NCBI GenBank assembly: GCA_017469425.1
Contig: JAFUGJ010000089.1
Location: 1 to 64,000 of the forward strand
DNA length: 64,000 nucleotides
Direction: 5' to 3'
Source: Bacteroidales bacterium
Lineage (GTDB): Bacteria > Bacteroidota > Bacteroidia > Bacteroidales > UBA932
Positions 16,720 to 36,264 of the stretch are shown in pieces; within the stretch, counting starts at the first letter, position 1; the number at the start of each line of letters is the position of its first letter. A program made the translations under genes and the position numbers. The notes under the pieces were generated by a model, which did no database searches, was not told the origin of the DNA, and saw nothing but the letters and a program-made list of their open reading frames with translations.

Positions 16720-16723
16720 TTCT

Positions 16724-16754
16724 TTTGCTTTTAATAATTTAATGGTTATATTTG
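16724..16754 (+). promoter_or_regulatory. Promoter of the alginate SusCD operon
   Basis: TTTG at 16724-16727, a 19-bp spacer and TATATTTG at 16747-16754, a perfect Bacteroidetes promoter. The transcription start would fall at the left edge of the palindrome at 16762. Confidence 0.75.
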
Positions 16755-16761
16755 CAAAAGA

Positions 16762-16781
16762 AAAATTGGTCAACCAATTTT
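16762..16781 (+). promoter_or_regulatory. Hexuronate-type GntR operator at the susC start site
   Basis: Perfect palindrome AAAATTGGT-CA-ACCAATTTT beginning seven bases after the -7 box. The same half-sites recur at 36214-36233. They match, from memory, the UxuR/ExuR (FadR-subfamily) operator core ATTGGT-N2-ACCAAT. The likely ligand protein is the GntR regulator at 37240, acting as a repressor at the start site. Confidence 0.75.
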
Positions 16782-16820
16782 CAAAAAACCATTTATTAAT
16801 AGCAGAATCAATCAGTTGGT

Positions 16821-19800
16821 ATGTTCAAAACAAGGCTTGCAGCTTTGCTGATGGTGTTCATTTCATTGTCGGCTGCTGCTCAGAACAAAGTGGTGAAGGG
16901 TATTGTTTCCGACTCTGAGGGCCCGCTTATCGGCGCATCGGTCGTAATCAAAGGAACCACCCAGGGAACCACTACTGGTATCGACGGTGACTACAGCATC
17001 GCGGTTCCCAACAATGCAACAATCCTAGTCTTCTCCTACATCGGCTACAAGAGCGAAGAAGTGCCCGTCGGCAAGACCCGGGAAATCAATGTTACACTCA
17101 AGACGGACGAGACCTTCCTCGATGATGTAGTCGTGGTCGGTTACGGTACACAGACCAAATCGCATCTCACCGGTTCAATTTCCAAGATTGAAGGTGACGG
17201 AGCGCTCATTGACATGCCGGTTTCCGATGTGGCTACCGCCTTGCAGGGCCAGGTTGCCGGTCTGAGCATCAACAACATTACCTCGGAGGTCGGCGTTTCT
17301 CCTACCATCCGCGTGCGCGGCACCGGCTCCATCTCCGCCGACAGTTCACCTCTCATCATAGTGGACGGCTATCCAGTGCCCGACGGCCTTTCCATGGTGA
17401 ACGCGTCCGACATCAAGTCCATTGAAATCCTGAAAGATGCTGCATCGGCCGCCATTTACGGGTCGCGTGCGGCCAACGGTGTAATCATGATTACCACCAA
17501 AGGCGGAAAGGCTGATGAGCCTCGCTATTCCGTGAAGGTTTATCAGGGCATGAAATACGCATACAAGCTTCACGACCTGCTCACAGCCACCGAATATATG
17601 CAACTTCAGGAGTTTGAGGCTTCCGTAGGAGGCCCTGCCGTAAAGGGGCAGGACCGTGCAGCCGCATGGGTGGAGAAGAATATCGGCTCCACCGACTGGC
17701 AGCGCGAAGGCTTACGCGATTTCACAGGCATCACCAACGCCCAGTTCAGCGTGTCCGGCGGTCGCAAGGCAATGCGCTACTACACCTCTGCATCCTATAC
17801 CAGGGATCAGGGTATCATGCTCCAGAACTCGGTGAACAAGCTTTCAGTGCGCACCCGCCTTGATGTGGACCTCACTTCCAAGGTGCGCTTCGGCTACAAC
17901 ATTTCGGGCAATTATTCCAAGTCCGAGCGCCCGCGCAACAATTTTATCGACTTCTACCGTACTCCTTCGTTCCTTCCCGTGAAGCATAACGACTGGACTA
18001 CCGCCTTTACCGGAGGATACACCGGATTCGCCCGAGGCAGCCACTTCAATCAGATTACCACCCCTACCGGCGACCCCGACTCCTACGGCAATCCCACCTG
18101 GGACAATAAAGTGAGTCCTTTCAACTCCGCCAACAACAACCCCAAGAGCGTGATGGCCAACACCGAGCGCTGGAGCGAATCCATGTCCGGCCTCGGCAAT
18201 GCGTATCTGGAAATTACCCTTGCCAAGGGGTTGACTTTCAAGACTTCCGACGGTTTCAACCTGCGCTACAGCCCCTCCTACACCTATGAGAACATGAACG
18301 CACTCAAGGACGGAACTCCCAGCGAAGCCACTTTCAACAGCACCCTCTATGTCGATTTGCTCAGCGAGAACACCCTTAACTACAATCTCGTACAGGGCCG
18401 CCACCGCTTGGACCTGCTTGCAGGTTACACTGTAGAAAAGACCCGCGTGCAGAGAGTTTCCCTTGACGGTACCGGCTTCCCTACGGACGACATTCATACA
18501 CTGAATGCAGCAACTGTATTTTCCCTTGCCGCCAACAATAACGGCAACGGTTCCGGCACAGGAACATTCCGCTATCCCGACAAGATACTGGAATCCGCCC
18601 TCGCCCGCGCTACCTACAGCTATGCTGACAAATACTTGTTTTCAGCATCGCTTCGACTCGACCGTTCGTCGCTATTCACCAAGGGCAACCGCAATGCATG
18701 GTTCCCCTCCGTATCCGCAGGCTGGCGTGTTTCGCAGGAACCCTGGATGCGTGAAATCGACTGGATCAACACCCTCAAGCTCAGGGCTTCGTACGGCGTG
18801 ACCGGCAACAACAATGTGAACTACTACTCCGCACTCGAAGTGCTCGGAGGAGCCAACTATGTGACCGGCGCCGGTAATGGCAGCCTGGTTTCCGGAACCG
18901 CCAACAATTCCACTACGCTCGCGAATGCCGACATCACCTGGGAACAGACCGACGAGTTCAATCTCGGTTTCGACCTCAGCGTGCTGCGCAACCGCATCAA
19001 CCTCTCGGTCGATACATACTATTCCATCACCAGGGCCCTCCTCTTCGAGCAGCCTACCCAGTCGTTCACCGGCTTTACCAAGTATTGGAACAACATAGGC
19101 CGGGTGCGCAATTCCGGCGTGGAACTTCAGCTCAATACGCTCAATGTCAAGAAGCGCCGCTTCACCTGGTCGAGCGACTTCAACATCTCCTTCACCCGCA
19201 ACAAACTGCTTGAAATCGGCGGCGAACGCGAAGTGATTACCCAGGGTGAACGCAGCGAGAATTACATCGCTCGCGTTGGCGATCCTCTTATCCAGTATTA
19301 TGGATTCAAGACCGACGGAGTGTGGAACACCACCGCTGAAATCCAGTCGAATCCCCATTTTGCGGCAGATGTGCCCGGCGGACTTCGCATCGTGGATACC
19401 AGTGGCGACGGCGTGCTGGGTGACGACGACCGCGTAGCTCTCGGGAATCCCTATCCTGCATTCTCCTACGGCCTCACCAACACCATCAAGTTCGGCAAGT
19501 TCGACTTTTCGGTGCTCATCCAGGGAGTTGCCGGAGTGACTGTATTCAACGGCGATGTTTACTACAACGAATCGCACAAATACAATACCGCATATCTTAA
19601 GAACCGCTGGGTCAGCGCCGACTATCCCGGCAACGGCAAGGTTCCCTACATGAAAGTGGGCTACGACATGCTTCTTACCGACTATCCTCTGCAGAACGGC
19701 TCCTACATCAGCCTTCGGAATGTGGCCATGGGCTACACCTTCGACAGCAAGGACCTCCGGGGCAGGCTCAGCGGACTGAGGGTCTATCTTACCGGCCAGA

Positions 19801-19955
19801 ACCTCGCATACATCTGGAGCAAGGACTACAAGGGCGTGAACCCCGAGTCCAGGATGACTTCCGGCAACTACTCTTCGCCAATGATTTCGGGTTATCAGCG
19901 TGGCGGATTCCCCATCACTTCCACCATTACCCTGGGTCTTGATGTCAAATTCTAA
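16821..19955 (+). CDS. SusC-type TonB-dependent outer-membrane transporter (alginate locus)
   Basis: 1044 residues. Signal peptide (LLMVFISLSAAAQ), a carboxypeptidase-D-like domain (KGIVSDSEGPLIGASVVIKG, residues 26-105), TonB box-like DDVVVVGYGTQ, plug domain with IRVRGTGSISADSSPLIIVDG and SIEILKDAASAAIYGSRAANGV, then a 22-strand barrel ending in LGLDVKF. It imports oligosaccharides with the SusD partner encoded 15 bases downstream. As first gene behind the operator-bearing promoter it heads the alginate operon. Alginate oligomers are the inferred cargo, from the lyases downstream. Confidence 0.95.
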   Translation: MFKTRLAALLMVFISLSAAAQNKVVKGIVSDSEGPLIGASVVIKGTTQGTTTGIDGDYSIAVPNNATILVFSYIGYKSEEVPVGKTREINVTLKTDETFLDDVVVVGYGTQTKSHLTGSISKIEGDGALIDMPVSDVATALQGQVAGLSINNITSEVGVSPTIRVRGTGSISADSSPLIIVDGYPVPDGLSMVNASDIKSIEILKDAASAAIYGSRAANGVIMITTKGGKADEPRYSVKVYQGMKYAYKLHDLLTATEYMQLQEFEASVGGPAVKGQDRAAAWVEKNIGSTDWQREGLRDFTGITNAQFSVSGGRKAMRYYTSASYTRDQGIMLQNSVNKLSVRTRLDVDLTSKVRFGYNISGNYSKSERPRNNFIDFYRTPSFLPVKHNDWTTAFTGGYTGFARGSHFNQITTPTGDPDSYGNPTWDNKVSPFNSANNNPKSVMANTERWSESMSGLGNAYLEITLAKGLTFKTSDGFNLRYSPSYTYENMNALKDGTPSEATFNSTLYVDLLSENTLNYNLVQGRHRLDLLAGYTVEKTRVQRVSLDGTGFPTDDIHTLNAATVFSLAANNNGNGSGTGTFRYPDKILESALARATYSYADKYLFSASLRLDRSSLFTKGNRNAWFPSVSAGWRVSQEPWMREIDWINTLKLRASYGVTGNNNVNYYSALEVLGGANYVTGAGNGSLVSGTANNSTTLANADITWEQTDEFNLGFDLSVLRNRINLSVDTYYSITRALLFEQPTQSFTGFTKYWNNIGRVRNSGVELQLNTLNVKKRRFTWSSDFNISFTRNKLLEIGGEREVITQGERSENYIARVGDPLIQYYGFKTDGVWNTTAEIQSNPHFAADVPGGLRIVDTSGDGVLGDDDRVALGNPYPAFSYGLTNTIKFGKFDFSVLIQGVAGVTVFNGDVYYNESHKYNTAYLKNRWVSADYPGNGKVPYMKVGYDMLLTDYPLQNGSYISLRNVAMGYTFDSKDLRGRLSGLRVYLTGQNLAYIWSKDYKGVNPESRMTSGNYSSPMISGYQRGGFPITSTITLGLDVKF

Positions 19956-19970
19956 ACAGGAGGATACGAT

Positions 19971-21479
19971 ATGAAAAAGAATATAATCATAGTCATTGCA
20001 GCATTGTTCGGCCTTAGCGCCTGCAATCTCGACCAGTATCCCTATTCCGAAGTCGCCGCCGACGAGTATGTGAAGGACGCTACCTCGGTGAACAACCTCG
20101 TGATAGGCATGTACAATGGTTTGTATGATGTCGTTTATAACGAATGGGCCATGACCGAACTGCGCAGCGACAATGCCCGCATGAGGGTGAACAACTCCAC
20201 CTCGCAGGATTCCAAGCTAATCGAACAGCTTGACCAGCTGGTTGTGCTCACTGCCAATTCCTGGGTCCAGGATTACTGGGATGCCCTTTATGTGGCCGTC
20301 AACCGCGCCAACACCGTGATTGCTAACCTCGATGTGGTTGAAGACGCACAGCAGCGTGCGCGTTTCGAGGGCGAGGCCCGCTTCATCCGCGCCTGGATGT
20401 ATTTCAATCTGGTGCGTCTTTGGGGCCCCGTGTTCGTTGTTACTTCCAAGACTGGCGCCGATGAAGCCCGCTACATGCAGCGCAGTCCTTCATCGGATGT
20501 CTGGGCGCTTATCGAGGAAGATCTGGAAGCGGTCGTGGATGAAGCGCTCCTTCCCGCAAGCATTCCTTCCAACGACCTGGGCCGCGCAGACCTCAAGGCT
20601 GCGAAAGCCCTGCTCGCAAAGGTTTACATGACCAGGTACAAGGCCGCAGATGCCAAGTATTCCACCGCGGCAAATCTGCTGAAGGAAGTGCTTGACGAAT
20701 GCGGCGATCCCACCACGGGGGCCCAGCTGGTGCCCTATGCCGATGTGTTCGACAAGGCCAACGAAGGTAATGCCGAAATCATCCTCGCGGTGCGCTACCG
20801 CAGCGGCAATCTCGGCATCGGTTCTCCTTTCACCACGCTCTACGCTCCCATCAATAACGGCGGCAATGTGGCGATAGGCTCTCCCAAGCACTATAATTAT
20901 CCGAGCGACAACATCATATCCGCATTCGATGCCAATCCCGGCGACCTGCGAAAGGATGTCTGCCTTCAGACCAGCTATTTCAACGCCACCACCGGCACCC
21001 TGGTTGATAATGCCAACGCCCGTTATTGCAGCAAGTTCATCGATCCGGACATGACGAGCGAATGGGATGCCGAGAACGACTTCCCCATCATCCGTCTTGC
21101 CGATGTATTGCTTCTCTATGCAGAGGCCCGCAACGAACTCGAAGGCCCTTCTGCCGAAGCCCTCTCCCGTCTCAATGCTGTGCGTGAGCGTGCCGGCATC
21201 CCCGCATATTCCCTCGGCGACCTGCCTTCCAAATACGCTTTCCGCCAGGCTGTGAGGGAAGAGCGCAGGCTTGAACTCGCTTTCGAGAACCAGCGTTTCT
21301 TCGACCTTCTCCGCTGGGGAACCGCGGTTTCCACCATCAATGCGTTCCTCGCCGGAGAACCCTTCTATGCCGCATACGACTATGTGGTGAATCCCATCTC
21401 CGAGTGGCAGACCCTGCTGCCCATCCCGGTGTCCGTAATCAATATCAACAAGAGTGTAGCTCAGAACCCCGGCTATTGA
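19971..21479 (+). CDS. SusD/RagB-type surface glycan-binding lipoprotein (alginate locus)
   Basis: 502 residues, lipobox LFGLSAC at residues 12-18. The TPR-like SusD fold is shown by RFEGEARFIRAWMYFNLVRLWGPV in the first half and AVREERRLELAFENQRFFDLLRWG plus LLPIPVSVININ at the C-terminus, both hallmarks of RagB/SusD. It forms the lid over the SusC channel. Confidence 0.95.
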   Translation: MKKNIIIVIAALFGLSACNLDQYPYSEVAADEYVKDATSVNNLVIGMYNGLYDVVYNEWAMTELRSDNARMRVNNSTSQDSKLIEQLDQLVVLTANSWVQDYWDALYVAVNRANTVIANLDVVEDAQQRARFEGEARFIRAWMYFNLVRLWGPVFVVTSKTGADEARYMQRSPSSDVWALIEEDLEAVVDEALLPASIPSNDLGRADLKAAKALLAKVYMTRYKAADAKYSTAANLLKEVLDECGDPTTGAQLVPYADVFDKANEGNAEIILAVRYRSGNLGIGSPFTTLYAPINNGGNVAIGSPKHYNYPSDNIISAFDANPGDLRKDVCLQTSYFNATTGTLVDNANARYCSKFIDPDMTSEWDAENDFPIIRLADVLLLYAEARNELEGPSAEALSRLNAVRERAGIPAYSLGDLPSKYAFRQAVREERRLELAFENQRFFDLLRWGTAVSTINAFLAGEPFYAAYDYVVNPISEWQTLLPIPVSVININKSVAQNPGY

Positions 21480-21480
21480 T

Positions 21481-23175
21481 ATGAAAAAGTTAGGTTTATA
21501 TATATTGGCAGCCGTTGCCTTCGTTGCAGCGGCATGCGACCAGACCAATGTGGACGAGGTGGTGCCTTCCGCCCCGGTAATCGAATCCTTCTCTCCCGAA
21601 ACGGCTCCCGTAGGTGCGGTGATTACCGTTAACGGCTCCTTCCTGAACGATGTGACCGAAGCCTATATCGGCGATGTGGCAGTCGGTTTCGCGGAGAAGA
21701 TTTCCGACACCAGGCTCACCCTCAAGGTTGCCAACGGAGTGACTTCCGGCAACATCGTGCTTGTGAACGACCTCGGAAGGGGAGTGTCGCAGAATGTGTT
21801 CAACTGCTCCTTCACCGTTCCCACCATCGCAGCTTCCCTGCTTCAGGAGAGTGCCGAGATGGGTTCGGAAGTGCTCATCAGCGGAAGCGGCCTCAGCGCC
21901 GTCACCACCGTGCTCTTTACTGCGGAAGGCTACACCGAAGGCCATAAGGCCGAGATAGTGGTGGCATCCGACGACGAGCTCGTGGTGAAGGTTCCCTATG
22001 TTGAAGAGGCCGACGCTTCCATCACCCTCGGGTACTTCAACGGCAGCAGCGAGGTTTTCACTTCCCTCAGCGGAGCTCCCGGCATAAAGGTCATACGCTA
22101 TGTGCCCAAGTTCGACGCCTACACTTTCGAGCGTACCGCTGTGGGCAAGAGCATAACACTCACAGGAGAATACCTGAACAATGTGGAAAAGGTTCTGGTA
22201 GGCGAATTCGAGGCACCCATTTTCAAGGAACCTTCCAAACTCAGCTTTACCATCCCCGCAGGCGATTTTGAAGACGGCGAGACTACCGTGAGCCTTAGCG
22301 CCGTGTATTTCGAAGGCAACGAAAGCATCACCTTGGCCGAGTCCTTCGTGGTGTATGTGCCTTTTGTGAAGTTCTGGGAGAATGCGCGTACCTGGGCGCA
22401 GGGCCGTACCGAGAAGAATGAATATGTATCGTTCTTCTCTCCCGAGACCGGCATCGCCTACGAAAACTCCAAGTGGAAGGATGTGCTTGACCCCATTGCA
22501 ATGAAGTACCAGAATGCACAGTGGGATGCGGCAAACACTCCCAAGGCAGGTGTGGTATCCGACGAGGAATACGACTCTGTGGTGCCCTACTTCTTCATTT
22601 CTGCAGTGAGCGGAAATGTGCTGCAGGTAAATTCTCCCGCCAACTCCAACAGCCAGCTGAAGAACTTCTACACTGCCGCCACCGGAACTCCCGCCAACGA
22701 CTACCGCGTGCCCGGCAGCAACAACAATATGCCCGGCACTCCCATCCTCGCCTTCCGTTACCTGAACCCCGACGCATCCTCCGATGCCGAAAAGGCCCTT
22801 GCTGCCAAGGTGGTGGCGGGCAGCATCGACAATATCAATGAGGAACTGTTCCCCATCGATGTCAACGCCGGCACCATAGCGGGAATCTCGGTATCTTCGC
22901 TCGCAGGCGCCATCAAATCCGACAAATGGTGCAGCCGCCAGATTACCGACCTTGTGGATGAGGACGGCTACAAGCTGGATGCGGTCTTCCTCGTTGCTTA
23001 CTACTACAACAACGGCTACATCAAGGAAACTCCTGCCAAAAACATCCGCCGCCTGGGCTTCCTGCACATCACCGGCATCGACTGGGGCATCTACAACGCC
23101 CAGAATTACGGATCGTCGCGCGTGACCTTCAACTTCTACTGGCAGAAGTACGATTATGACTATTCCAAACTTTAA
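21481..23175 (+). CDS. TIG/IPT-domain surface lipoprotein, SusE/F position, first of two
   Basis: 564 residues, lipobox VAAAC at residues 15-19. Three TIG/IPT-like domains follow: about 33-115 (IESFSPETAPVGAVITVNG), 117-200 (MGSEVLISGSGLSAVTTVLF) and 208-300 (VGKSITLTGEYLNNVEKVLVG). The remaining 260 residues form a separate domain with VVPYFFISAVSG, LQVNSPANSNSQLKNF and an aromatic C-terminus (FNFYWQKYDYDY). The position right after susD suggests a surface glycan-binding protein. The C-terminal domain has a counterpart in the next gene. No recognised CAZy module could be assigned. Confidence 0.8.
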   Translation: MKKLGLYILAAVAFVAAACDQTNVDEVVPSAPVIESFSPETAPVGAVITVNGSFLNDVTEAYIGDVAVGFAEKISDTRLTLKVANGVTSGNIVLVNDLGRGVSQNVFNCSFTVPTIAASLLQESAEMGSEVLISGSGLSAVTTVLFTAEGYTEGHKAEIVVASDDELVVKVPYVEEADASITLGYFNGSSEVFTSLSGAPGIKVIRYVPKFDAYTFERTAVGKSITLTGEYLNNVEKVLVGEFEAPIFKEPSKLSFTIPAGDFEDGETTVSLSAVYFEGNESITLAESFVVYVPFVKFWENARTWAQGRTEKNEYVSFFSPETGIAYENSKWKDVLDPIAMKYQNAQWDAANTPKAGVVSDEEYDSVVPYFFISAVSGNVLQVNSPANSNSQLKNFYTAATGTPANDYRVPGSNNNMPGTPILAFRYLNPDASSDAEKALAAKVVAGSIDNINEELFPIDVNAGTIAGISVSSLAGAIKSDKWCSRQITDLVDEDGYKLDAVFLVAYYYNNGYIKETPAKNIRRLGFLHITGIDWGIYNAQNYGSSRVTFNFYWQKYDYDYSKL

Positions 23176-25097
23176 TGCTCCGGAATATGAAGAAGATATT
23201 TAGCATACTTGCATTTGCGGCCCTTTTTGCCTTTGCCGCATGCGAAGACGAGGTGACACCCGCAGAGAACACCCCTGCGGTGAATGTCACTACGGAAAAG
23301 CTCAACCCCAATACCGATGAAAGCGGAACCGTGCGTGCCTATGTGGGCACTCAGGTAACCGCCCTCGGGCTCAATCTTGACAAGGTGGGCAAGGTGACCA
23401 TCGACGGACTCGACGCCACCATCGTCAGCCAGGAAATGAAGACTCTCGTTTTCGAGATTCCCGATATCGGCAAGGGCCAGCAGGACGACCCTTATATGGT
23501 TGACCTTGTCGTTTACGATGCCGATGCCACCACTCCTGTATTCAAATACGACTATTTCGTGACCATTCCAGTTACCGATGCGCTTGTGAGCGGCTTTGCT
23601 CCCGCTTCGGGAACCGTGGGAACGGTGGTTACCATCTCCGGACGCAATCTTGGGCAGGTAACTTCCGTAAGTTTCGGGGGAGTTGCCGTGAGCAGCTTCG
23701 TATCCCAGGAAGCCGATGCAGTCGAGGTGGCCGTGCCTCTGGTGAACACCGGCGAGGCTGACAGCGAAATCGACATTACCGCCGTCTGGAGCGGAGGCAT
23801 CCTTTCGTTCGCCTACAAGTTTACCCTCAGCTTGCCCAAGTTCGATCCTTATACCCAGGAAAGCCCTGCTCTGCTTGGCGATGAAGTAACCCTGACCGGC
23901 AAAAACCTTGACCTGGTGTCCGCAGTGAAGTGGGGCGACGAAACCCTGCTCATCTCCGACCAGGGCGCAGATGCCATCACCGTGAAGATTCCTACCGGAC
24001 TTGAGCAGCAGACTCCTGCAGTCGTAGCCAAGGCCCTCACCGCCGTGTATGGCGTATCCGCGGACCAGATTCTTGCCATTGCGGAAGCTTTCCGGATTGA
24101 CACCACCCCCGTCGGCCCTGCAGCGCCCGTATTTGCGAGCATCGCTCCCACCGACACCGGGTACGACAAGATTTTCCTCGGCAGGGAAGTCACGGTAAAG
24201 GGTGAAAATTTCGCATCCATAGAAAAATTCAAGATTGACGGAATCGAAGTTGCCCTCAACGGAGAGGCTACCGACATCGACGCCAGGTTCACCGTTCCCC
24301 GCACCATCACAGGCACTGCCAAGAAGCAGGTCAGCCTCGTTGCGGTGTGGAACGGCGGCAACGAGCTCGACTGCGGAGAGATTACCGTATATCCTTTCTT
24401 CTTCACCAAAGGGCTCAGGATTGGCATTGGCTCCAACTCCAAGAACACCTATCCCGACTATAACCGCGAGAATGCCTTCATACTTCTCGACGAAGGAAAG
24501 GTGATTTCGGTGGACGAGTTCAAATCTTCCAACATTGATCCGTTTGCACTCAGCGGAAGCAATACGGTGACACCTTCTGCCGGCAAGGTGGCTGGTTCGG
24601 AAACCGACTACTACAGCGTGCAGCCATACCTCTTCGCCATCAGCAACAGCGCCCACAAGCTGAGCTTCTGCAATCCGGCCAACACTGCAAACCAGCTCAA
24701 GTGCCACTTCGACTCCGACAAGAACGCCCTGCCTACCACATTCGGTACTCCCGTGATATACCTGCTGATTGTGACCGACGAGACTCTCAAGGCAAGTGTT
24801 TCCGACGGTACGCTCGATGACATTGCCACCAGCGTTGGCAAGGCGGGCTCCGGCGCTCCAGCCCTGGGCACCTCTGAGGGCAGCACATGGGTCAAGGGCA
24901 GCGTGCTTGGCCTTCAGTACACGAGCTACGATTACGCCAAGGACACCAAGAAGCCCGATACCGGACTTGCTGGCGTTCGCAAGGTGGGTTATGTGGTAGT
25001 GCGCGACATTACCTGCGCCGACCTCGCCACCGGCCTTGCAAACACCGACCGCGAAGGGTATATTGAGCTTGATCTATATTGGTCCAATGTATTATAG
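23175..25097 (+). CDS. TIG/IPT-domain surface lipoprotein, second of two
   Basis: 640 residues from the ATG at 23175, which overlaps the previous stop (TAATG). The ATG at 23187 gives an equally good lipoprotein signal (FAALFAFAAC). Four TIG-like repeats are visible at about 40-130, 135-215 (FAPASGTVGTVVTISGRNL), 215-315 (LLGDEVTLTGKNLDLV) and 320-410 (FLGREVTVKGENFASI). The C-terminal 230 residues resemble that of the upstream protein (VQPYLFAISN, LSFCNPANTANQLKCHF). It is probably a paralogous glycan-binding protein that extends the binding domain away from the membrane. It ends in TAG. Confidence 0.78.
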   Translation: MLRNMKKIFSILAFAALFAFAACEDEVTPAENTPAVNVTTEKLNPNTDESGTVRAYVGTQVTALGLNLDKVGKVTIDGLDATIVSQEMKTLVFEIPDIGKGQQDDPYMVDLVVYDADATTPVFKYDYFVTIPVTDALVSGFAPASGTVGTVVTISGRNLGQVTSVSFGGVAVSSFVSQEADAVEVAVPLVNTGEADSEIDITAVWSGGILSFAYKFTLSLPKFDPYTQESPALLGDEVTLTGKNLDLVSAVKWGDETLLISDQGADAITVKIPTGLEQQTPAVVAKALTAVYGVSADQILAIAEAFRIDTTPVGPAAPVFASIAPTDTGYDKIFLGREVTVKGENFASIEKFKIDGIEVALNGEATDIDARFTVPRTITGTAKKQVSLVAVWNGGNELDCGEITVYPFFFTKGLRIGIGSNSKNTYPDYNRENAFILLDEGKVISVDEFKSSNIDPFALSGSNTVTPSAGKVAGSETDYYSVQPYLFAISNSAHKLSFCNPANTANQLKCHFDSDKNALPTTFGTPVIYLLIVTDETLKASVSDGTLDDIATSVGKAGSGAPALGTSEGSTWVKGSVLGLQYTSYDYAKDTKKPDTGLAGVRKVGYVVVRDITCADLATGLANTDREGYIELDLYWSNVL

Positions 25098-25102
25098 GAA
25101 TA

Positions 25103-28440: not shown

Positions 28441-30593
28441 AAAAGTTAGTAGTTATCATATTTGCTTCTGCACTGAGCTTTTCGCTCGCAGCATCTTCGC
28501 ACCGTCATCCTTGCCTCCTGCTGAGCAAGGATGCGGTGGTGCAGATGAAGGCGGTGCGCGGAAGCGTTCCCCTTTTCGACGCTTCACTCGCGGAGGTAAT
28601 CGACAATGCCGAAAGGGCTTTGGAGAGGGAAATCAACCTTCCCAGACCCGAACACGGCGGGGGAGGCTACAGCCACGAGACGCACAAGCTCAACTATTTC
28701 GACATGTATAACTGCGGCATTGCCTGGCAGATTACGGGCAAGCGTGCCTATGCCGACAGGGTGAAGGCTATGCTGACGGCCTATGCCGAGCTGTATCCGA
28801 CCCTGGGTTATCATCCTCTGAATCTCTCGCCCGTGCCCGGCCGCATTTTCTGGCAGACCCTGAATGAAAGCGTATGGCTGCTGCATGCTGCCCAGGCATA
28901 TGACTGCATCTACGATACCCTCAGCTCCAGGGAGCGCAGGCACTTGGAAAGCGTGTTGTTCCGCCCTTATGCCGAGTTTATCATGAACGGCACGGCTGAC
29001 AACCGCGCCAACCAGCGGACTTTCAACAACCTCAACAACCATGCAACCTGGGCTAATGCCGCAGTGGGCATGATTGCCATTGTGATGGGCGACGATGCCA
29101 TGCTTCGCAAGGCCCTATACGGGAAGGACGAAAGCGGCGAGGTAGGATTCATGCGCCAGCTCGATGTGCTTTTCTCGCCCGACGGATATTTCACCGAAGG
29201 GGCTTACTATCAACGTTACGCCATCTGGCCTTTCATGATTTTTGCCCAGTGCCTGCAGCATAATCGCCCTGATCTTGGCATATTCACCTATCGCGACGGC
29301 ATCCTGCTGAAAGCAGTGGACACTCTGCTGCAGATGGCATACGACGGGCAGTTCATGCACTTCAATGACGCCCTTGAGAAAGGCTACGACGCCCAGGAAC
29401 TCGTTTCGGCAGTTGATATAGCCTATCTCGCCGACCCTTCCAACAAGGAACTCCTTTCGGTGGCGGCGGATTATCAGCAAAAGGTTCTGGTGAGCGACGC
29501 GGGATTTGCCGTTGCCAAGGCTATTGCCGAGGGGCAGGCCCGTCCGCTGAAGCTTCGCAGCTGCATCCTGCACGACGGGGCCGACGGCAGTGAGGGCGCA
29601 TTCGTGATAATGCGTTCTCCCCGTGAGGGCGAGAATTCCGCACTGACATTCAAGGCCACTTCGCACGGCCTCAGTCACGGGCATTTCGATCGCCTGAACT
29701 TCGCCTACTACGATGCCGGAAACGAAATTGTAACCGACTATGGAGCAGCGCGTTTTCTGAACATTGTGGCTAAATACAACGGGCATTACACCCATGAGAA
29801 CAATAGCTATGCAAAACAGACTATTGCCCACAATACCCTCGTGGTGGATGCAAAGAGTCAGTTCCAGGCCAAGATGAAAGATGCATCCGACTCCCATCCC
29901 GAAATCACCGCCTGTTCTCTCGGAGGCGATGTACAGATGGTTGCCTCCCGGGAAGAGAATGCCTATCCCGGGGTCAGCATGGAGCGCTGGCTCTTCTTTG
30001 CCGATGTGCCTTTCCTGCAGTTTCCTCTCGTAATGGACCTGCTGCGGGCCACATCTTCCGAATCCCATTGCTATGATTATCCGGTACATTATCTCGGACA
30101 CATGATAGAACTTTCGGTACCTTATTCCAAGGCTCTTGAAACCATGCACAGGATGGGTGATGCAAGCGGCTACCAGCACCTCTGGGTTGAGGCTGAAGCC
30201 GATGCTGCCGATGGAACCACGGCATATACCTGGCTCACAGGATACAGGATGTACAGCATCTCCACTGCCACGGCTGCAGGCGACAAGGTATTTATTGCAA
30301 GGACTGGAGCAAGTGACCCGGATTTCAACCTGCGCAGCGAACCCGCTTATATACTTCGCCACCAGGCGGGGCCCGGAAGCACGCTTTTCGCATCTTGCCT
30401 CGAAACCCATGGCAAATACGACATCAAGGTTGAGCAGTCGGCAAACCTCGACCGCTCCTGCACCGCAGTGGAGGTGACGGAAAACAGCCCCTCGCACATA
30501 TCCGTGCGCTACTCCTTCAAGGATGGGAGGGCAGTGCTGCTCGATGTCGACCTTTCTTCCGACCAGATAAAATACAATGTTAGTTACGAATAA
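28437..30593 (+). CDS. PL17 oligoalginate lyase
   Basis: 718 residues from the ATG at 28437 (four-base overlap with the second PL6). Signal peptide IIFASALSFSLAAS. The N-terminal alpha/alpha toroid (alginate lyase domain) carries Asn201-His202 in NNLNNHATW and Tyr258 in GAYYQRYA. These numbers coincide with those I recall for Alg17C of Saccharophagus. The C-terminal heparinase II/III-type beta-sheet domain starts near residue 380 (SHGLSHGHFDRLNFAYYD). It is an exolytic enzyme that releases unsaturated monouronate from alginate oligomers, probably in the periplasm. A 1040-residue open frame on the opposite strand across this region is a shadow. Confidence 0.93.
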   Translation: MKKLVVIIFASALSFSLAASSHRHPCLLLSKDAVVQMKAVRGSVPLFDASLAEVIDNAERALEREINLPRPEHGGGGYSHETHKLNYFDMYNCGIAWQITGKRAYADRVKAMLTAYAELYPTLGYHPLNLSPVPGRIFWQTLNESVWLLHAAQAYDCIYDTLSSRERRHLESVLFRPYAEFIMNGTADNRANQRTFNNLNNHATWANAAVGMIAIVMGDDAMLRKALYGKDESGEVGFMRQLDVLFSPDGYFTEGAYYQRYAIWPFMIFAQCLQHNRPDLGIFTYRDGILLKAVDTLLQMAYDGQFMHFNDALEKGYDAQELVSAVDIAYLADPSNKELLSVAADYQQKVLVSDAGFAVAKAIAEGQARPLKLRSCILHDGADGSEGAFVIMRSPREGENSALTFKATSHGLSHGHFDRLNFAYYDAGNEIVTDYGAARFLNIVAKYNGHYTHENNSYAKQTIAHNTLVVDAKSQFQAKMKDASDSHPEITACSLGGDVQMVASREENAYPGVSMERWLFFADVPFLQFPLVMDLLRATSSESHCYDYPVHYLGHMIELSVPYSKALETMHRMGDASGYQHLWVEAEADAADGTTAYTWLTGYRMYSISTATAAGDKVFIARTGASDPDFNLRSEPAYILRHQAGPGSTLFASCLETHGKYDIKVEQSANLDRSCTAVEVTENSPSHISVRYSFKDGRAVLLDVDLSSDQIKYNVSYE

Positions 30594-30596
30594 AAT

Positions 30597-30941
30597 ATGA
30601 AAACAAGAAGCGAAACTTTCCTTATTGGCAGGAAGCTCCCCTGGGAGCCCGCCGGTGAAGGCGTCAAACGCCAGATTATGGGTTATGACGGTCAACTTAT
30701 GATTGTCAAGGTTCATTTTGAAAAAGGTTCGGTGGGCAATCTCCATGAGCATTACCACAGTCAGGCAACTTATGTGGTGAGCGGCAAGTTCGAGGTGAGC
30801 ATCGGGCGCAAGAAGAAGGTGCTCACGGCGGGTGACGGCTTTTATGTAGCTCCCGACGAGATTCATGGCTGTTTGTGCCTGGAAGAAGGAGTGCTCATTG
30901 ATGTGTTCTCGCCCCACAGGGCCGACTTCCTCGCAAAATAA
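30597..30941 (+). CDS. kdgF: KdgF-like cupin, unsaturated uronate ring-opening
   Basis: 114 residues, a single cupin with metal-binding HEHYHSQATYVVSG and PDEIHGCLCLEEG. KdgF speeds conversion of the cyclic unsaturated uronate released by alginate and pectin lyases to the open 4-deoxy-5-keto uronate. It lies three bases after the PL17 gene and just before the transporter, the position expected for this step. No signal peptide, so cytoplasmic. Confidence 0.9.
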   Translation: MKTRSETFLIGRKLPWEPAGEGVKRQIMGYDGQLMIVKVHFEKGSVGNLHEHYHSQATYVVSGKFEVSIGRKKKVLTAGDGFYVAPDEIHGCLCLEEGVLIDVFSPHRADFLAK

Positions 30942-30947
30942 GTGCCT

Positions 30948-32258
30948 ATGAAAGTCAAAGGACTCCGCTGGTGGGTGCTGGCGCTCATAGTGCTGGTAAC
31001 CATCATCAACTACCTCGACCGCAACACCCTCGGCATCATGTGGGCCAAGATTGTGGAAGACCTTGGCATCATCAGCCGCGACGGTCTCAGCGACGCCGAG
31101 TTTAACGACCTGAGCAAGAAGCTGTTCCGCGACATCAACATGGTATTCATGATTGCCTACGGCCTCTCGCAGATGTTTTCCGGGAAACTGTACGACAAGA
31201 TTGGCACCCGCAAGGGCTTCACCATATCCGCTCTCGTATGGGGGATTTCCGACCTCCTGACCTCGCTCGCCACGGGCGTCAAGTCCATCGCTGGATTCCG
31301 TGCAGGACTGGGCCTTGGCGTGGCAGGCCCGTGGCCCGGAGCGGTGAAGAGCAATGCGGAGTGGTTTCCCCAGAAGGAGCGTGCCATGGCCCAGGGGTAT
31401 TTCAATGCCGGAGCCTCCGTAGGCGCCATCCTCGCCCCCATTCTCATAGCCCTCATTTATGCCTGGGTAGGCTGGAAGTGGACCTTCGTGGCCATCGGCG
31501 TGCTGGCTCCCCTGTGGGTGATTCCATGGCTTGTCATCAACAAGAAAGGCCCCAAGGAGCATCCCTGGATAACCGATGCCGAACGGGATTACATCATAAA
31601 CGGACAGCCGGAATGTAATGTGAAGAATGACACGGGGCTCAGCTGGGGTCAGCTCCTCTCCCGGCGCAAGAGCTTTGCGGTTATCCTCGGGCGGTTCTTC
31701 CTCGACCCCATCTGGTGGATGTTCGTAACATGGCTTCCCATCTACCTCGGCCAGAAATACGGCATGGACATCAAGCAGCTTGCAGCCCACATGTGGATAC
31801 CCTATGTCGGGGCGGCACTTGGTTCGCTTGCCGGCGGTTGGACTTCCAGCCACTTCCTCCGCAAAGGCAGGTCTGTGGGATTCGCCCGCAAGGCCGCCAT
31901 ACTCATAGGCGCCTGCATCCTCCTGCCCTCGCTTATCTATGTGGCCTTCGTGCAGGATGCAATGCTCGCCGTTTGCGTGATGGCCGTGATTCTTTTCGGT
32001 TACCAGTTTACCATCAACAACATCCAGACCCTTCCCGGCGACATGTACACAGGCAAGAGCGTGGGTTCGCTCGCGGGCCTTGGCGGGGCTGCCGCAACAC
32101 TGGGAACCATCCTCACGATGCTCTTCATTCCTATGCTCACTGCGGGTGACAACTGGACTCCGTTCTTTATCATGGGAGCTTCGCTGGTTCCGCTCAGCCT
32201 TATTTGCGTTTTTGTGTTTGGCGGAAAGATAGAACACGACGCGCTAAAATCGGAATGA
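30948..32258 (+). CDS. MFS transporter, anion:cation symporter family (ExuT-like)
   Basis: 436 residues from the ATG at 30948; an in-frame GTG at 30942 is less likely. About twelve transmembrane segments. The start, LRWWVLALIVLVTIINYLDRNTLGIM, and GLGLGVAGPWPGAVKSNAEWFPQKERAMAQG are typical of hexuronate and galactarate carriers of the ACS family. It probably carries the monouronate across the inner membrane. An 8-base gap after kdgF suggests cotranscription. Confidence 0.9.
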   Translation: MKVKGLRWWVLALIVLVTIINYLDRNTLGIMWAKIVEDLGIISRDGLSDAEFNDLSKKLFRDINMVFMIAYGLSQMFSGKLYDKIGTRKGFTISALVWGISDLLTSLATGVKSIAGFRAGLGLGVAGPWPGAVKSNAEWFPQKERAMAQGYFNAGASVGAILAPILIALIYAWVGWKWTFVAIGVLAPLWVIPWLVINKKGPKEHPWITDAERDYIINGQPECNVKNDTGLSWGQLLSRRKSFAVILGRFFLDPIWWMFVTWLPIYLGQKYGMDIKQLAAHMWIPYVGAALGSLAGGWTSSHFLRKGRSVGFARKAAILIGACILLPSLIYVAFVQDAMLAVCVMAVILFGYQFTINNIQTLPGDMYTGKSVGSLAGLGGAAATLGTILTMLFIPMLTAGDNWTPFFIMGASLVPLSLICVFVFGGKIEHDALKSE

Positions 32259-32281
32259 TAACTTTTATATAATTTATTGAA

Positions 32282-33037
32282 ATGGGAAAACTTGAAGGAA
32301 AAGTTGCCATCGTAACAGGTGGCGCACGCGATCTCGGACGCGCAATCTCCGTGAAACTTGCTCTCGAAGGAGCAAAGGTATGCCTCAATTATTTTGACAA
32401 CAAGGCCGATGCCGAAGAAACCCTCCGTATGATCAGGGAGGATGGCGGCGAAGCCATTGCAGTCCAGGGCGACATGACCAAGGCGGACGATGTAAAGAAC
32501 CTCTTTGCAAAAGCAGCCGAGGCTTTCGGCCCCACCGTACATGTGCTCGTAAATGTGGTCGGAGGTATCGTTGGACGCAAACTTATCACCGAACAGGATG
32601 AGAAGTGGTACGACTTCCTTATGGATGTGAACATGCGCAGCGTGTTCCTCTGCACCCGCGAGGTGGTGCCCATGATGAGCGAAGGCGGCGCCATCGTCAA
32701 CTTCAGCTCCCAGGCAGCCCGCGACGGCGGCGGCCCCGGCGCTTCGATGTACGCCACCGCCAAGGCTGCGGTAATGTGCCACACCCGTTCCATGGCCAAG
32801 GAACTCGGCCCCAAGGGCATCCGCGTGAACGCCCTCGCTCCCGGCATGATCAACACCAGTTTCCACGACCGCTTCACCAAACCCGAAGCCCGCGAAAACC
32901 TTCACAACACCGCTCCTCTGCGCCGTGAGGGTGAAGCCCGCGAAGTTGCCGACCTGGTATGCTTCCTCGCCTGTGACGAGTCGTCCTACATCACCGGCGC
33001 CGCCATAGACATCAACGGCGGCGTGTTGTTCTCATAA
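32282..33037 (+). CDS. SDR-family reductase of 4-deoxy-5-keto uronate (DehR/KduD-like)
   Basis: 251 residues. Classical SDR: TGGARDLGRAI (nucleotide binding), NVVGG, FSSQAA with the catalytic Ser, and YATAK with Tyr and Lys. In alginate loci this gene reduces the linear unsaturated uronate (DEH) to 2-keto-3-deoxygluconate with NAD(P)H. That specific substrate is inferred from context. A weak TAACTTTT element sits just upstream at 32259, so a minor internal promoter is possible. Confidence 0.85.
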   Translation: MGKLEGKVAIVTGGARDLGRAISVKLALEGAKVCLNYFDNKADAEETLRMIREDGGEAIAVQGDMTKADDVKNLFAKAAEAFGPTVHVLVNVVGGIVGRKLITEQDEKWYDFLMDVNMRSVFLCTREVVPMMSEGGAIVNFSSQAARDGGGPGASMYATAKAAVMCHTRSMAKELGPKGIRVNALAPGMINTSFHDRFTKPEARENLHNTAPLRREGEAREVADLVCFLACDESSYITGAAIDINGGVLFS

Positions 33038-33050
33038 ATAATCCGAAAGT

Positions 33051-33200
33051 ATGAAAACAGTCAAAATTATGCGTGCGGCGTATATGGCACCTGTCATCGA
33101 ACTGCAGGAAATTGCCTCGGCATCTCTCATCTGCACTTCAGGCAATGCTCCGGACAGCGGCTTTGAAGGTTTGAACGATCCCGTTGATCTTGAATGGTAA
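33051..33200 (+). CDS. 49-residue conserved-type Bacteroidales peptide
   Basis: Small gene, ATG at 33051 and TAA at 33198-33200. It begins MKTVKIMRAAYMAPVIEL, then has ASASLICTSGNAP and ends in NDPVDLEW. Many Bacteroidales encode similar 45-60 residue peptides (Tyr-x-x-Pro near the start, a short SLxCxSG middle and an acidic end with Trp) in front of fimbrillin-like surface protein genes. The function is unknown. It lies 13 bases after the SDR gene and 16 bases before the fimbrillin-like gene, so it is part of the operon. Confidence 0.65.
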   Translation: MKTVKIMRAAYMAPVIELQEIASASLICTSGNAPDSGFEGLNDPVDLEW

Positions 33201-33216
33201 AAAAGAGGAACTGATT

Positions 33217-35130
33217 ATGAAAAATATAGTTTTTTCTTCCGCAGCCCTTTTTGCTGCCCTGATGATTTCTTCCTGCTCCAAGGAGCAGCCTGTTGAATCC
33301 TTTGTGAATGAAGGTTCCGACCTTGTTCCCATGTCATTTGTCGCCTCCGTAGAAGCTGACGGAACAAAGGCTGCCCTGGAAGCGGACGGCAAAACGGTCA
33401 GTTGGGAGGGCAACGAGTCCATAGCCGTGTTTGACAATGTCAGCGGCGACATACACAAATTTGATGCTGAGGGTGCAGGCGCCACTACATCTTTCACCGG
33501 TTCCGTAAGCAGCGGAGCCTCAAGTTTTGTTGCAGTATATCCCTATAGCGAAGACATAGTCTACACCCCCGGCGAGTCGAGCCCCATTCTTATGGAGCTT
33601 CCTTCGGTACAGGATGCCGTTCTTGGCGGATTCGACCCCAAGGCTGCCGTTTATGTGGCCACTTCTGCCGACCTTTCCGCCAAGTTGGCTTTCAAGGCTT
33701 GCTTTGCCCTTGTCAAGGTCAATGTTGATATCGACAATGTGACGGGCGTGCTCGTAGAGGCCAAGACCAAGTACATGTCCGGCAGTGTCAAGGTTTCAAC
33801 CGGAGGCGGTATCGGGGACGGTACAGGCACAAGGGTCAGAAATGTTGCGCTCAGAAAGCCGGACGGAACCGTCCTTGCAAAAGGGGAATACTACATTGTG
33901 GTCAGACATCTCGGTTCGAGCGGTACATACACCGATTTTACAGTGACTTATGTAAAATCCGATGCAAAGGGCCTTTCCCGCACTGCTTCGTCTGACATGA
34001 CGCCCACCGAGCTTGGCAGGAAATGCGTTTTGAATATTGGCAACCTTTCCGGTTTCCCCGGAACTCCGCAGACCAACAGGTATCTTGTATATCAGACCGG
34101 CGCAAATGTCGTACTCGGAGGTGAAACATATAACAGGGCCATTTACGGAGAAGCCGTCGAGCTTGATCCGGCGGTCAATATCTCTGATTCCAGACTCTCC
34201 GCAAAGGTGCATTTCCTGAAGGCCGGAGCCAATTACACTACCAGCGGCCTGGCTATGAACAAGGAACTTATCGTGCTTGCAGGAGAAGACCCCGAAAATG
34301 TTTCGGTTGTCAAGAATTCCAGCGCATGGAAACTGCAGTCCGGCACATTGGTGGCAGATGGTCTTGGGTTTGATTTATCCGCTCTTACATCGAGTTCAGC
34401 TATCTTTATGAACAACAGTGGCGCTACCGAGGATTTTGAGAGTCTCGTCGTGTCCAAGTGCAGGATTGCGGAAACCAGTGCGAATCCCTGGTATTTGTTC
34501 AACACCAATTCCGGTGTTACGGATGTAGGAATAAAGAATGTCCTCCTTGCCGACAATGTGTTCGTGGTTGATTCCAAGGTGAAATATTTTATAGGGTTCA
34601 ACTCTAATCATGTTGCAGTAGACCATTTCAAGAATATGGAATTCCGCAACAATGTCATCTGCAGCAAGAGTACAACCAACAGGGCACCGAGCCTGTTTTA
34701 TTCCAGCGCGTCGAAGGCCAATACTACCGGCTATGATGATGTGAAGGTAAAGATTACCGGCAATATTTTCTATAATGCTGCCGCAACGGCCGGCACCTAT
34801 CGTAGCTATTCTGCGGGGGATATCCAGATTAAGGACAATGTCTACTATGTGACGGACGGACAGAACTTTACATCAAGCCCCAAAGTGGTCCATTTCAGTA
34901 TCGATATCAATCCGGGTGAAGCTCCTTACACCGGTTTTGCGACGCATAACCTTGCCTATGGAACAATGACGGGCGGGGGTTCGTGGACAATCGCGAGTTC
35001 AAAATATTCCATTTCCATGTTCGAGGCATTTACAATTGCCGACGAAGACCCCTTTGAAACAGCGGATTATACGACAGGCACATTTGTCCTGAAACCGGCC
35101 TACTCATCGTATGGCCCTCAGGCAGAGTAG
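33217..35130 (+). CDS. Fimbrillin-like N-terminus with beta-helix-like C-terminus, surface lipoprotein
   Basis: 637 residues from the ATG at 33217, lipobox LMISSC. Residues about 20-290 resemble fimbrillin-family proteins (VPMSFVASVEADGTKAALEADGKTVSWEGNE is cut here for length; key residues are TKA and W-x-x-x-E). From about residue 300 there is a right-handed beta-helix-like region with repeated short N-V-F and N-I-F turns, similar to DUF4957/DUF5123 proteins found in polysaccharide loci. Probably a surface alginate-binding protein. It ends in TAG just before the bidirectional terminator. Confidence 0.65.
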   Translation: MKNIVFSSAALFAALMISSCSKEQPVESFVNEGSDLVPMSFVASVEADGTKAALEADGKTVSWEGNESIAVFDNVSGDIHKFDAEGAGATTSFTGSVSSGASSFVAVYPYSEDIVYTPGESSPILMELPSVQDAVLGGFDPKAAVYVATSADLSAKLAFKACFALVKVNVDIDNVTGVLVEAKTKYMSGSVKVSTGGGIGDGTGTRVRNVALRKPDGTVLAKGEYYIVVRHLGSSGTYTDFTVTYVKSDAKGLSRTASSDMTPTELGRKCVLNIGNLSGFPGTPQTNRYLVYQTGANVVLGGETYNRAIYGEAVELDPAVNISDSRLSAKVHFLKAGANYTTSGLAMNKELIVLAGEDPENVSVVKNSSAWKLQSGTLVADGLGFDLSALTSSSAIFMNNSGATEDFESLVVSKCRIAETSANPWYLFNTNSGVTDVGIKNVLLADNVFVVDSKVKYFIGFNSNHVAVDHFKNMEFRNNVICSKSTTNRAPSLFYSSASKANTTGYDDVKVKITGNIFYNAAATAGTYRSYSAGDIQIKDNVYYVTDGQNFTSSPKVVHFSIDINPGEAPYTGFATHNLAYGTMTGGGSWTIASSKYSISMFEAFTIADEDPFETADYTTGTFVLKPAYSSYGPQAE

Positions 35131-35158
35131 AAACTGCTGATATTCATTCTGATTAAAG

Positions 35159-35194
35159 AAAGAGTGCTGTCCGAACAACCGGACGGCACTCTTT
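35159..35194. terminator. Bidirectional terminator between the alginate operon and the esterase gene
   Basis: AAAGAGTGC (35159-35167) pairs with GCACTCTTT (35186-35194), continued by GTCCG (35169-35173) with CGGAC (35180-35184) around an AACAAC-type loop. The esterase stop codon (35193-35195) overlaps its right arm. Confidence 0.8.
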
Positions 35195-36173
35195 ATAAAT
35201 TCTTGCTGACGAAATCCGCGGTTTTGAAGAAAATTTCTTCCATTTTGTCGGAAGTCTTGGAACTGAGGTTGTGGTCGTAGTACATGTATTCCTGCAGGTC
35301 GACCTTGGCCTTTCGGCGCTTCAGGGCGGCGGCGAATTCTTCGCTCTGGACGCATTCTACCGTAAGGTCGGCAGTGCCGCAGAACAACTGTGCCGCAAGA
35401 CTGGTCTTCTTGGGAATCATGAAGTAGGGAGAAGCCTCCTTGAGGTAATCGGACTTCAGGCCGCCGAAGTATGCGATGCGCTCGGGGTCTTTTGCGCGGG
35501 TTGTGATGGCGGCGGTCGTGAGGTCGTAAATGCCCGAGTAGCCTACGAACACTTTTGCATTGCACTTCAGGGCTGCAACGGCGGCAAGATGCCCGCCTGC
35601 CGATGTGCCGAGGAATCCGATGCGGGTCATGTCAACATTGAGTTCGGAAGCATGCTCCCGTACATATTCAACTGCGTCAAGTACATCCTGAATCGACACC
35701 TGTACATTCGCTCCGGGCTGAGGAGCCAGAGTGTACTGTATGCGTACTCCGGTAATCCCGTGCTGCTGGGCAAGGTACTTGGAGATTGAACGCGACGATG
35801 TGTTGGTGCCTCGGGCCCAGCCGCCTCCATGCACATAGAACATCACGGGAGTGGGGGATGAGCTGTCGAAGCTGTCTATTTCTATGTGCAGCTCGTATCC
35901 GTCGTGGATCTTGTATATGTAATCCTTGGTGCGGGCTTTGTTGTAGAGCTTGCCGCTGAGCCTCTTGTTTTCGTGTACATATGGAGTATAAAGGTCGGGA
36001 ATCTCGCTGAGGTTGATGATTTTTGCATAGCGTTGCTCGCGCTGCAGGGCATAGCTGCCGTCGGGCTTCTGTTCAAGCTTCATGGCATATCGGTTTGTGG
36101 GCACGGGCTCCTGGGCGAAAACCCCAGGGGTCATGAGTACGGCGGCAAGTGTGGAGAGCAAATAATGTTTCAT
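35193..36173 (-). CDS. Secreted alpha/beta-hydrolase, carbohydrate esterase-like
   Basis: 326 residues with a signal peptide (STLAAVLMTPGVFAQ). HGGGW forms the oxyanion hole, GTSAGG holds the nucleophile Ser and YYDHN the likely catalytic His, the pattern of BD-FAE/HSL-like esterases. It is transcribed away from the lyase-gntR pair but shares their operator. Removal of O-acetyl groups from alginate (bacterial alginate is acetylated) is a reasonable but unproven role. Confidence 0.8.
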   Translation of the reverse strand: MKHYLLSTLAAVLMTPGVFAQEPVPTNRYAMKLEQKPDGSYALQREQRYAKIINLSEIPDLYTPYVHENKRLSGKLYNKARTKDYIYKIHDGYELHIEIDSFDSSSPTPVMFYVHGGGWARGTNTSSRSISKYLAQQHGITGVRIQYTLAPQPGANVQVSIQDVLDAVEYVREHASELNVDMTRIGFLGTSAGGHLAAVAALKCNAKVFVGYSGIYDLTTAAITTRAKDPERIAYFGGLKSDYLKEASPYFMIPKKTSLAAQLFCGTADLTVECVQSEEFAAALKRRKAKVDLQEYMYYDHNLSSKTSDKMEEIFFKTADFVSKNL

Positions 36174-36196
36174 GTTGTTTTTTGTTAATTTTGTGC

Positions 36197-36204
36197 TAAA
36201 TTTG
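36197..36204 (+). promoter_or_regulatory. -7 element for the lyase-like gene and gntR
   Basis: TAAATTTG, a perfect TAnnTTTG. A TTG at 36174-36176 is 20 bases upstream as a weak -33. The start would fall at the left edge of the palindrome. Confidence 0.55.
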
Positions 36205-36210
36205 TGGTTA

Positions 36211-36236
36211 GCTAAAATTGGTTAACCAATTTTAGC
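36211..36236. promoter_or_regulatory. Extended hexuronate-type GntR operator in the divergent region
   Basis: A perfect 26-bp palindrome. Its core AAAATTGGT-TA-ACCAATTTT (36214-36233) has the same half-sites as the operator at susC, and here the symmetry extends by GCT/AGC. It lies between two -7 boxes that point toward each other. One bound dimer would cover both start sites, repressing the esterase and the lyase-gntR genes, including gntR itself. Confidence 0.78.
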
Positions 36237-36241
36237 ATTTG

Positions 36242-36249
36242 CAAATATA
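36242..36249 (-). promoter_or_regulatory. -7 element for the esterase gene
   Basis: Minus strand TATATTTG, a perfect TAnnTTTG, five bases to the right of the palindrome. The leader to the ATG at 36173 would be about 63 bases and begin with the palindrome. No clear -33 box. Confidence 0.5.
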
Positions 36250-36264
36250 ATCAAACTTATTGTT

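Follow-up and report, generated by a model that had tools for sequence, protein, structure and literature searches.

The stretch of DNA analysed here, the first 64,000 nucleotides of contig JAFUGJ010000089.1 (forward strand) of the Bacteroidales assembly GCA_017469425.1 and hereafter called the window, carries an alginate polysaccharide utilization locus (PUL) with its own gene for a GntR-family regulator, at 37240. The larger part of the locus (Table 1) is a long, tightly packed series of genes for a SusC-like and a SusD-like protein, two TIG-domain proteins, two lyases of the polysaccharide lyase family 6 type (PL6), a PL17-type lyase, a cupin, a transporter of the major facilitator superfamily (MFS), a short-chain dehydrogenase/reductase (SDR) and a DUF4957-like lipoprotein, which would together form one operon of ~18 kb. 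The regulator gene is the second of a pair, beginning 3 bp after a gene for a polysaccharide-lyase-like protein, and this pair diverges from an esterase gene.

Two exact copies of the palindrome AAAATTGGT-N2-ACCAATTTT, claimed in a first-pass annotation of the window, are indeed present in the locus, one upstream of susC and the other facing two gene starts, that of the esterase on the minus strand and that of the lyase–gntR pair on the plus strand. The same annotation placed the first copy at the susC start and the gntR gene beside the second. The first copy does lie upstream of susC, but 40–59 bases before its ATG (16821), and the gntR gene does belong to a unit preceded by the second copy, but at a distance of ~1 kb. 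No further copy had been noticed in the window, and a search allowing up to three mismatches agrees with this, giving two matches against 0.03 expected from shuffled sequences. In the whole assembly (2,533,415 bases) the same search returned the same two sites and no third, while the backward-read control matched once; the full palindrome is therefore not scattered over the genome, as would have been the case for a sequence occurring at random sites. The core TGGT-N2-ACCA is likewise found in the window at these two sites only. The assembly consists of 103 contigs and is 94% complete with an estimated contamination of 6.3%, so that the absence of additional sites, as well as that of additional genes for FCD-domain regulators (see below), is not absolute.

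On all three gene-facing sides the core is preceded by a TAnnTTTG box, which ends 12 bp (susC), 14 bp (lyase–gntR) and 13 bp (esterase) before it. According to the available excerpts of the relevant paper, this motif is the consensus −7 sequence for the primary sigma factor of Bacteroides (PMC7366714). In dinucleotide-shuffled flanks a box ending 10–16 bp before the core appeared with frequencies of 0.005, 0.015 and 0.0045 for the susC, lyase–gntR and esterase sides, respectively. A further TAnnTTTG is present on both sides of the second palindrome, ending 25 bp (lyase–gntR) and 23 bp (esterase) before the core. Inspection of the −33 position by eye revealed TTTG 19 bp upstream of the susC −7 box and TTG for the lyase–gntR pair. 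With −7 boxes 12–14 bp before their cores, the palindromes appear to sit where transcription should begin, the start points themselves being predicted. A scan of positions 16700–36600 for sigma-70-type promoters gave 16 matches against 11.7 expected and was uninformative; a scan for terminators gave 16 against 19.4, which speaks neither for nor against an interruption of the operon.

The 37240 protein combines a GntR helix-turn-helix domain (PF00392, 1.8e-12) with an FCD domain (PF07729, 4.4e-23); no other FCD protein was found in the assembly. A GntR regulator of an alginate PUL, AusR, is described for Zobellia galactanivorans in the available excerpts of three papers (PMC8286568, PMC7874173, PMC8073546), according to two of which it is a repressor that acts at single, double or triple operators and is lifted by degradation intermediates (PMC7874173, PMC8286568). 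In a tree of 58 sequences, all 34 AusR-type proteins, including the window protein and those of Zobellia, formed one clade (support 100/99), with E. coli UxuR and ExuR and 22 other FCD proteins outside it. The tree left out a fragment (L148), duplicates or near-copies (L059, L151, L153, L155, L159 and L165) and the two lowest-scoring sequences (L169 and L178). One protein of the phylum sample (L053) is identical to a protein from Zobellia uliginosa DSM 2061. A profile built from the eight proteins of the family to which the window genome belongs gave scores of 234–414 for AusR-type proteins (133 for one fragment) and of at most 101 for other FCD proteins. By its membership of this clade, the 37240 protein would thus be classified as an AusR-type GntR/FCD regulator. 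Its gene is found in 8 of the 149 family genomes (E up to 1e-15) and, with the family profile at 1e-35, in 13 of 393 order genomes and 13 of 395 genomes of the phylum sample, each count including the window genome. The eight family proteins all share four FCD residues (D146, H150, H194 and H216), which are also aligned in UxuR and ExuR. We take such residues to bind a metal and a carboxylate (sugar-acid) ligand, and in the 37240 protein they would be fitting for a metal-bound sugar acid.

The first-pass annotation had seen in this protein a hexuronate-type repressor, on the grounds that the half-site resembles that of UxuR/ExuR. The resemblance is genuine: in E. coli the identical core occurs ahead of uxuA and uxuR (TGGTCAACCA, TGGTTAACCA, TGGTTGACCA). 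The E. coli and window proteins also have the FadR-type GntR architecture in common. Together with the aligned Asp and His residues, the shared core would suit a repressor of the UxuR/ExuR kind that was recruited to the alginate locus and is released by glucuronate, galacturonate or fructuronate. The protein, however, scores only 50.7 bits against the UxuR equivalog model (cut-off 442) and 48.2 against that of ExuR (cut-off 396), and UxuR and ExuR lie outside the 34-sequence clade; on these grounds the hexuronate label was dropped and UxuR/ExuR membership rejected. Furthermore, no TGGT-N2/3-ACCA was present in the exuT/exuR region examined, and no connection of the E. coli regulators with alginate or SusCD genes was seen in the regions examined, whereas the window site belongs to a SusCD locus encoding PL6 and PL17 alginate lyases. 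TKGT/ACMA boxes are, as far as the excerpts of the source go, a trait of the FadR subfamily as a whole (PMC4494728), so that a shared core says little about UxuR/ExuR membership. A literature search with the UxuR site strings returned nothing that looked related among the matches listed. We consider a recruited hexuronate repressor very improbable.

The palindrome and the gntR gene occur together across genomes. The 14-mer ATTGGTN2ACCAAT is present in 16 of the 149 family genomes: in seven of the eight with the gene, where it is intergenic, and in nine of the 141 without it, where all nine copies are inside open frames (p = 3.1e-7 for all sites; p = 2.9e-11 when only those between genes are compared, 7/8 against 0/141, a division introduced once the matches were known). 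The eighth genome with the gene (G024) carries a weaker intergenic core, TTGGTTGACCAA. Among 32 orthologues (duplicates L046 and L137 left out), TGGTN2ACCA was found in the flanks (~1.5 kb) of 27, comprising 7/8 from the family, 9/12 from the order and 11/12 from the phylum; the swapped control ACCAN2TGGT was found in the same flanks of none (0/32). For comparison, 36 FCD matches were collected, 30 of them with loci, and of the 25 among these that were neither AusR-type nor from the window only one had the core in its flanks, measured in this case from the FCD domain and not from the whole gene. Finally, 80 of 285 named relatives provided 75 distinct loci, all of which were counted; since these are related, the counts are not independent. 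They contain 222 intergenic and 24 coding copies of the core, against 0 intergenic and 28 coding copies of the control, and an intergenic core is present in 73 of the 75 Flavobacteriaceae-type loci (none in L123 and L129), although in 28 the 300 bp preceding the gntR match contain none. All open frames counted here were picked by a script, with a minimum length of 80–110 codons, and are not annotated genes.

In these relatives, where sites were chosen by their core, the core is common and the arms vary, the consensus being an A/T-rich arm, TTGGTNNACCAA and a second arm. Many AusR-type relatives possess tandem operators, whereas those of the window are single, with no degenerate second copy apparent by eye 13 bp beside either. 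Of 87 pairs of neighbouring cores less than 40 bp apart (loci L059–L133 and L032), 71 are spaced at 13 bp, 14 at 26 bp and one each at 17 and 23 bp; outside that set, spacings of 15 and 27 bp occur in L047 and L049. The phasing at 13 and 26 bp suggests that dimers may be stacked or cooperate. Among 115 flavobacterial operator–gene pairs, 32 have a −7 box that ends 11 bp before the core and 23 have one that overlaps it (+2); Flavobacteriaceae loci frequently show a distal core merged with the −7 box (TATATTTGGT, for example L059 2985–3013). The single sites of the window, at 12–14 bp, would therefore be most like the proximal member of an array of this kind.

Taken together, both palindromes are very probably operators of the 37240 protein, and the link between the SusCD operon and the gntR gene that the first-pass annotation drew from the two sites is supported, with an FCD-type member of the FadR subfamily as the very probable binding protein. 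We regard it as highly likely that the alginate locus is governed by this AusR-type repressor, encoded within it, through two operators over three gene starts. A repressor dimer would bind TGGT-N2-ACCA and its A/T arms at the two places, covering three starts: that of the susC unit of ~18 kb, that of the esterase gene on the opposite strand and that of the lyase–gntR pair. Lying just downstream of a −7 box of the type used by the Bacteroides primary sigma factor (sigma-ABfr), each operator is expected to span the point where transcription begins, so that a bound repressor would keep polymerase out, and the copy at the lyase–gntR start should make the repressor self-limiting. Upon degradation of alginate an intermediate, most likely 4-deoxy-L-erythro-5-hexoseulose uronate (DEH), an unsaturated-uronate product, or 2-keto-3-deoxygluconate (KDG), would enter the FCD pocket, the repressor would leave the DNA and the locus would be induced.

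The first-pass annotation considered this type of control unusual. This view is not supported, since AusR has already been published as a GntR regulator of an alginate PUL, and the same core is present in nearly all of the Flavobacteriaceae-type loci. A 2020 paper by Dudek et al. (NAR), cited also in PMC9296495, reportedly treats AusR as a GntR repressor of alginate PULs. To judge from the excerpts cited above, AusR and the window protein have in common the GntR family, a gene inside the alginate PUL and, as predicted here for the window, operator copies at the promoters of the locus. The window protein also groups with proteins of other Zobellia species, and the susC, MFS and SDR genes are homologous to those of the Z. 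uliginosa DSM 2061 locus (34%, 46% and 37% identity, respectively), which consists of susC, susD, PKD, PL7, gntR, MFS, SDR and PfkB-kinase genes, with MFS adjoining gntR. The window differs from the AusR system in that the regulator belongs to a lyase–gntR pair divergent from an esterase gene. Comparable by description are alginate PULs of gut Bacteroides (B. eggerthii DSM 20697 and B. ovatus CP926), for which the available text reports a FadR-family GntR gene together with SusCD, PL6, PL17, KdgF and MFS genes and mentions no operator (PMC11381880). Excerpts of other studies describe 32 polar alginate gene clusters in which GntR proteins make up 16 of the 29 regulators (PMC7874173), and assign LacI-family regulators to the uronate genes of B. 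thetaiotaomicron, with GntR proteins for fucose and mannose (PMC3878776). No description of an AusR-type operator outside Flavobacteriaceae was found among the literature matches listed, which were available as excerpts.

The sequence is also compatible with a 37240 protein that occupies both sites as an activator or in a dual role. The FadR family contains activators as well as repressors. Yet the operator lies downstream of a −7-like box on each of the three gene-facing sides, an arrangement suited to a steric block, and AusR represses according to the excerpts of its descriptions (PMC8286568, PMC7874173); activation is thus a very unlikely mode of action. Still less credence is given to a role at the RNA level, in which the palindromes would be hairpins of a 5′ leader and not DNA operators. 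Their perfect arms could pair around a small loop, and the −7 boxes, if correctly placed, would put both sites in or near such a leader, but relatives keep the core while the arms vary, site presence tracks the gntR gene, and a core that overlaps the −7 box, as in the 23 flavobacterial pairs, should not be fully transcribed. Chance, or another regulator altogether, is about as implausible: although binding itself is predicted from sequence and a 12-mer of the palindrome is no commoner in the genome than its control, the full palindrome far exceeds expectation in the window, both of its copies in 2.53 Mb fall at one locus, and gene and site co-occur across genomes.

Several observations nonetheless weigh against repression of the locus by the 37240 protein through these sites. 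The 12-mer in question, TTGGT-N2-ACCAA, is found at three places in the genome against two for its backward control and is not enriched, and the backward control of the 14-mer is present in 19 of the 149 family genomes, including two of the eight that have the gene. By itself, then, the core is no rarity, and it is the long arms, the position and the genome comparison that make the sites significant; likewise, as the 14-mer is not commoner than its control, the signal lies in its placement. The third 12-mer copy (C65:55629), which is inside an open frame, was rejected as probably due to chance. No clear −33 box could be seen by eye for the esterase. Five of the 32 orthologue neighbourhoods (L007, L054, L138, L144 and L147) lack an exact core, and in L048, counted among the 27, both cores are in script-called open frames. 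In the genome of L007 (G072, of the same genus as the window) both susC and the esterase gene are preceded by tandem cores instead, and the other four were examined within flanks only. Absence from orthologous loci that keep the gntR gene, which the first-pass annotation would have taken as a refutation, is thus seen near a minority of orthologues, one of which carries its sites at other positions of the locus. Between the window protein and that of Z. uliginosa, identity is only 33% over 208 residues, and long branches were flagged in the tree, that of the window protein being 1.39. The Zobellia proteins in the tree are from species other than Z. galactanivorans, which is also not among the compared loci, so that the window operator may be equated with the published AusR operator only indirectly. 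Finally, the sole gene of the 2-keto-3-deoxy-6-phosphogluconate (KDPG) aldolase family found, on contig C30, has neither TGGTN2ACCA nor TKGTN2ACMA in the stretch examined. This is a difference from the AusR system and places the KDPG-aldolase step outside the regulon.

Table 1. Predicted regulatory elements and genes of the alginate locus (window coordinates).
Feature	Position	Strand	Remarks
−7-like element facing susC	16747..16754	+	TATATTTG; ends 12 bp before TGGT core
Putative operator 1	16762..16781	.	AAAATTGGTCAACCAATTTT, spacer CA; 5′ of susC
susC-like TonB-dependent transporter	16821..19955	+	First gene of long unit
susD-like	19971..21479	+	
IPT/TIG-domain protein	21481..23175	+	
IPT/TIG-domain protein	23175..25097	+	
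PL6-type lyase	25079..26455	+	Chondroitinas_B model; listed open reading frame starts with TTG, start uncertain
PL6-type alginate lyase	26446..28440	+	Best PDB match BcAlyPL6 (7dmk); listed open reading frame starts with GTG
PL17-type alginate lyase	28374..30593	+	Best PDB match 8bdd
Cupin, probably KdgF-like	30597..30941	+	Name suggested by position and cupin domain
MFS transporter, probably for uronates	30942..32258	+	
SDR, probable DEH reductase	32282..33037	+	
DUF4957-like lipoprotein	33184..35130	+	Likely ATG at 33218; Pfam match below cut-off; last of long unit
Alpha/beta-hydrolase esterase (BD-FAE)	35193..36173	-	Faces operator 2
−7-like element facing lyase–gntR	36197..36204	+	TAAATTTG; ends 14 bp before core
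Putative operator 2	36214..36233	.	AAAATTGGTTAACCAATTTT, spacer TA; between two divergent gene starts
−7-like element facing esterase	36242..36249	-	TATATTTG; ends 13 bp before core
Polysaccharide-lyase-like protein	36265..37236	+	First of gntR unit; Polysacc_lyase 26.3 bits (Pfam cut-off 29.9)
Putative AusR-type GntR regulator (GntR helix-turn-helix and FCD)	37240..37950	+	Second of lyase–gntR pair

The PL17-type gene scored 670.6 bits against the NCBIfam oligoalginate lyase model, below its cut-off of 1400. A 49-codon open frame (33051–33203) is located between the SDR and DUF4957-like lipoprotein genes. BD-FAE-type esterase genes stand at an operator in the window, in G072 (L032 7918–8958) and in G048, a genome of genus g11 (L034 13799–14785), and G072 additionally has a SASA acetylesterase; esterases at operators may point to acetylated (bacterial) alginate as the substrate. 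In G048 the gene after the second operator (L034 15704–16546) is KduI-like, and no KduI-like uronate isomerase was found among the window PUL genes scanned. G072 also contains an extra intergenic operator-like site (L033 5074; G072:C16:32072) between SBF transporter and shikimate-dehydrogenase-like genes, on a contig other than that of the PUL. Elsewhere in the window, the gene at 1820–4582, possibly a mobile or defence gene, encodes a ResIII helicase domain preceded by a T5orf172 endonuclease-like domain.

The control proposed here is of a known kind, familiar from marine relatives (Flavobacteriaceae) and now met in another order of the same class. A broader scenario can be put forward only tentatively: that throughout the class one ancestral repressor–operator pair controls whole alginate PULs, the operator being locked to the sigma-ABfr −7 box and built up by phased copies (mostly at 13 bp in Flavobacteriaceae) whose number sets the tightness of repression, and that the window represents the simplest, single-copy form, with the entire PUL under just two operators. 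Spacings of 15, 17, 23 and 27 bp outside Flavobacteriaceae weigh against such phased arrays, and we think it rather doubtful. Glycan loci of Bacteroidales are best known for control by hybrid two-component systems, SusR-like regulators or sigma factors. The present analysis extends the marine flavobacterial model to this order and provides AusR-type regulators with a computed operator consensus that can be tested; having a single regulator and only two sites, the locus would offer a compact system in which effector choice and promoter blocking can be tested.

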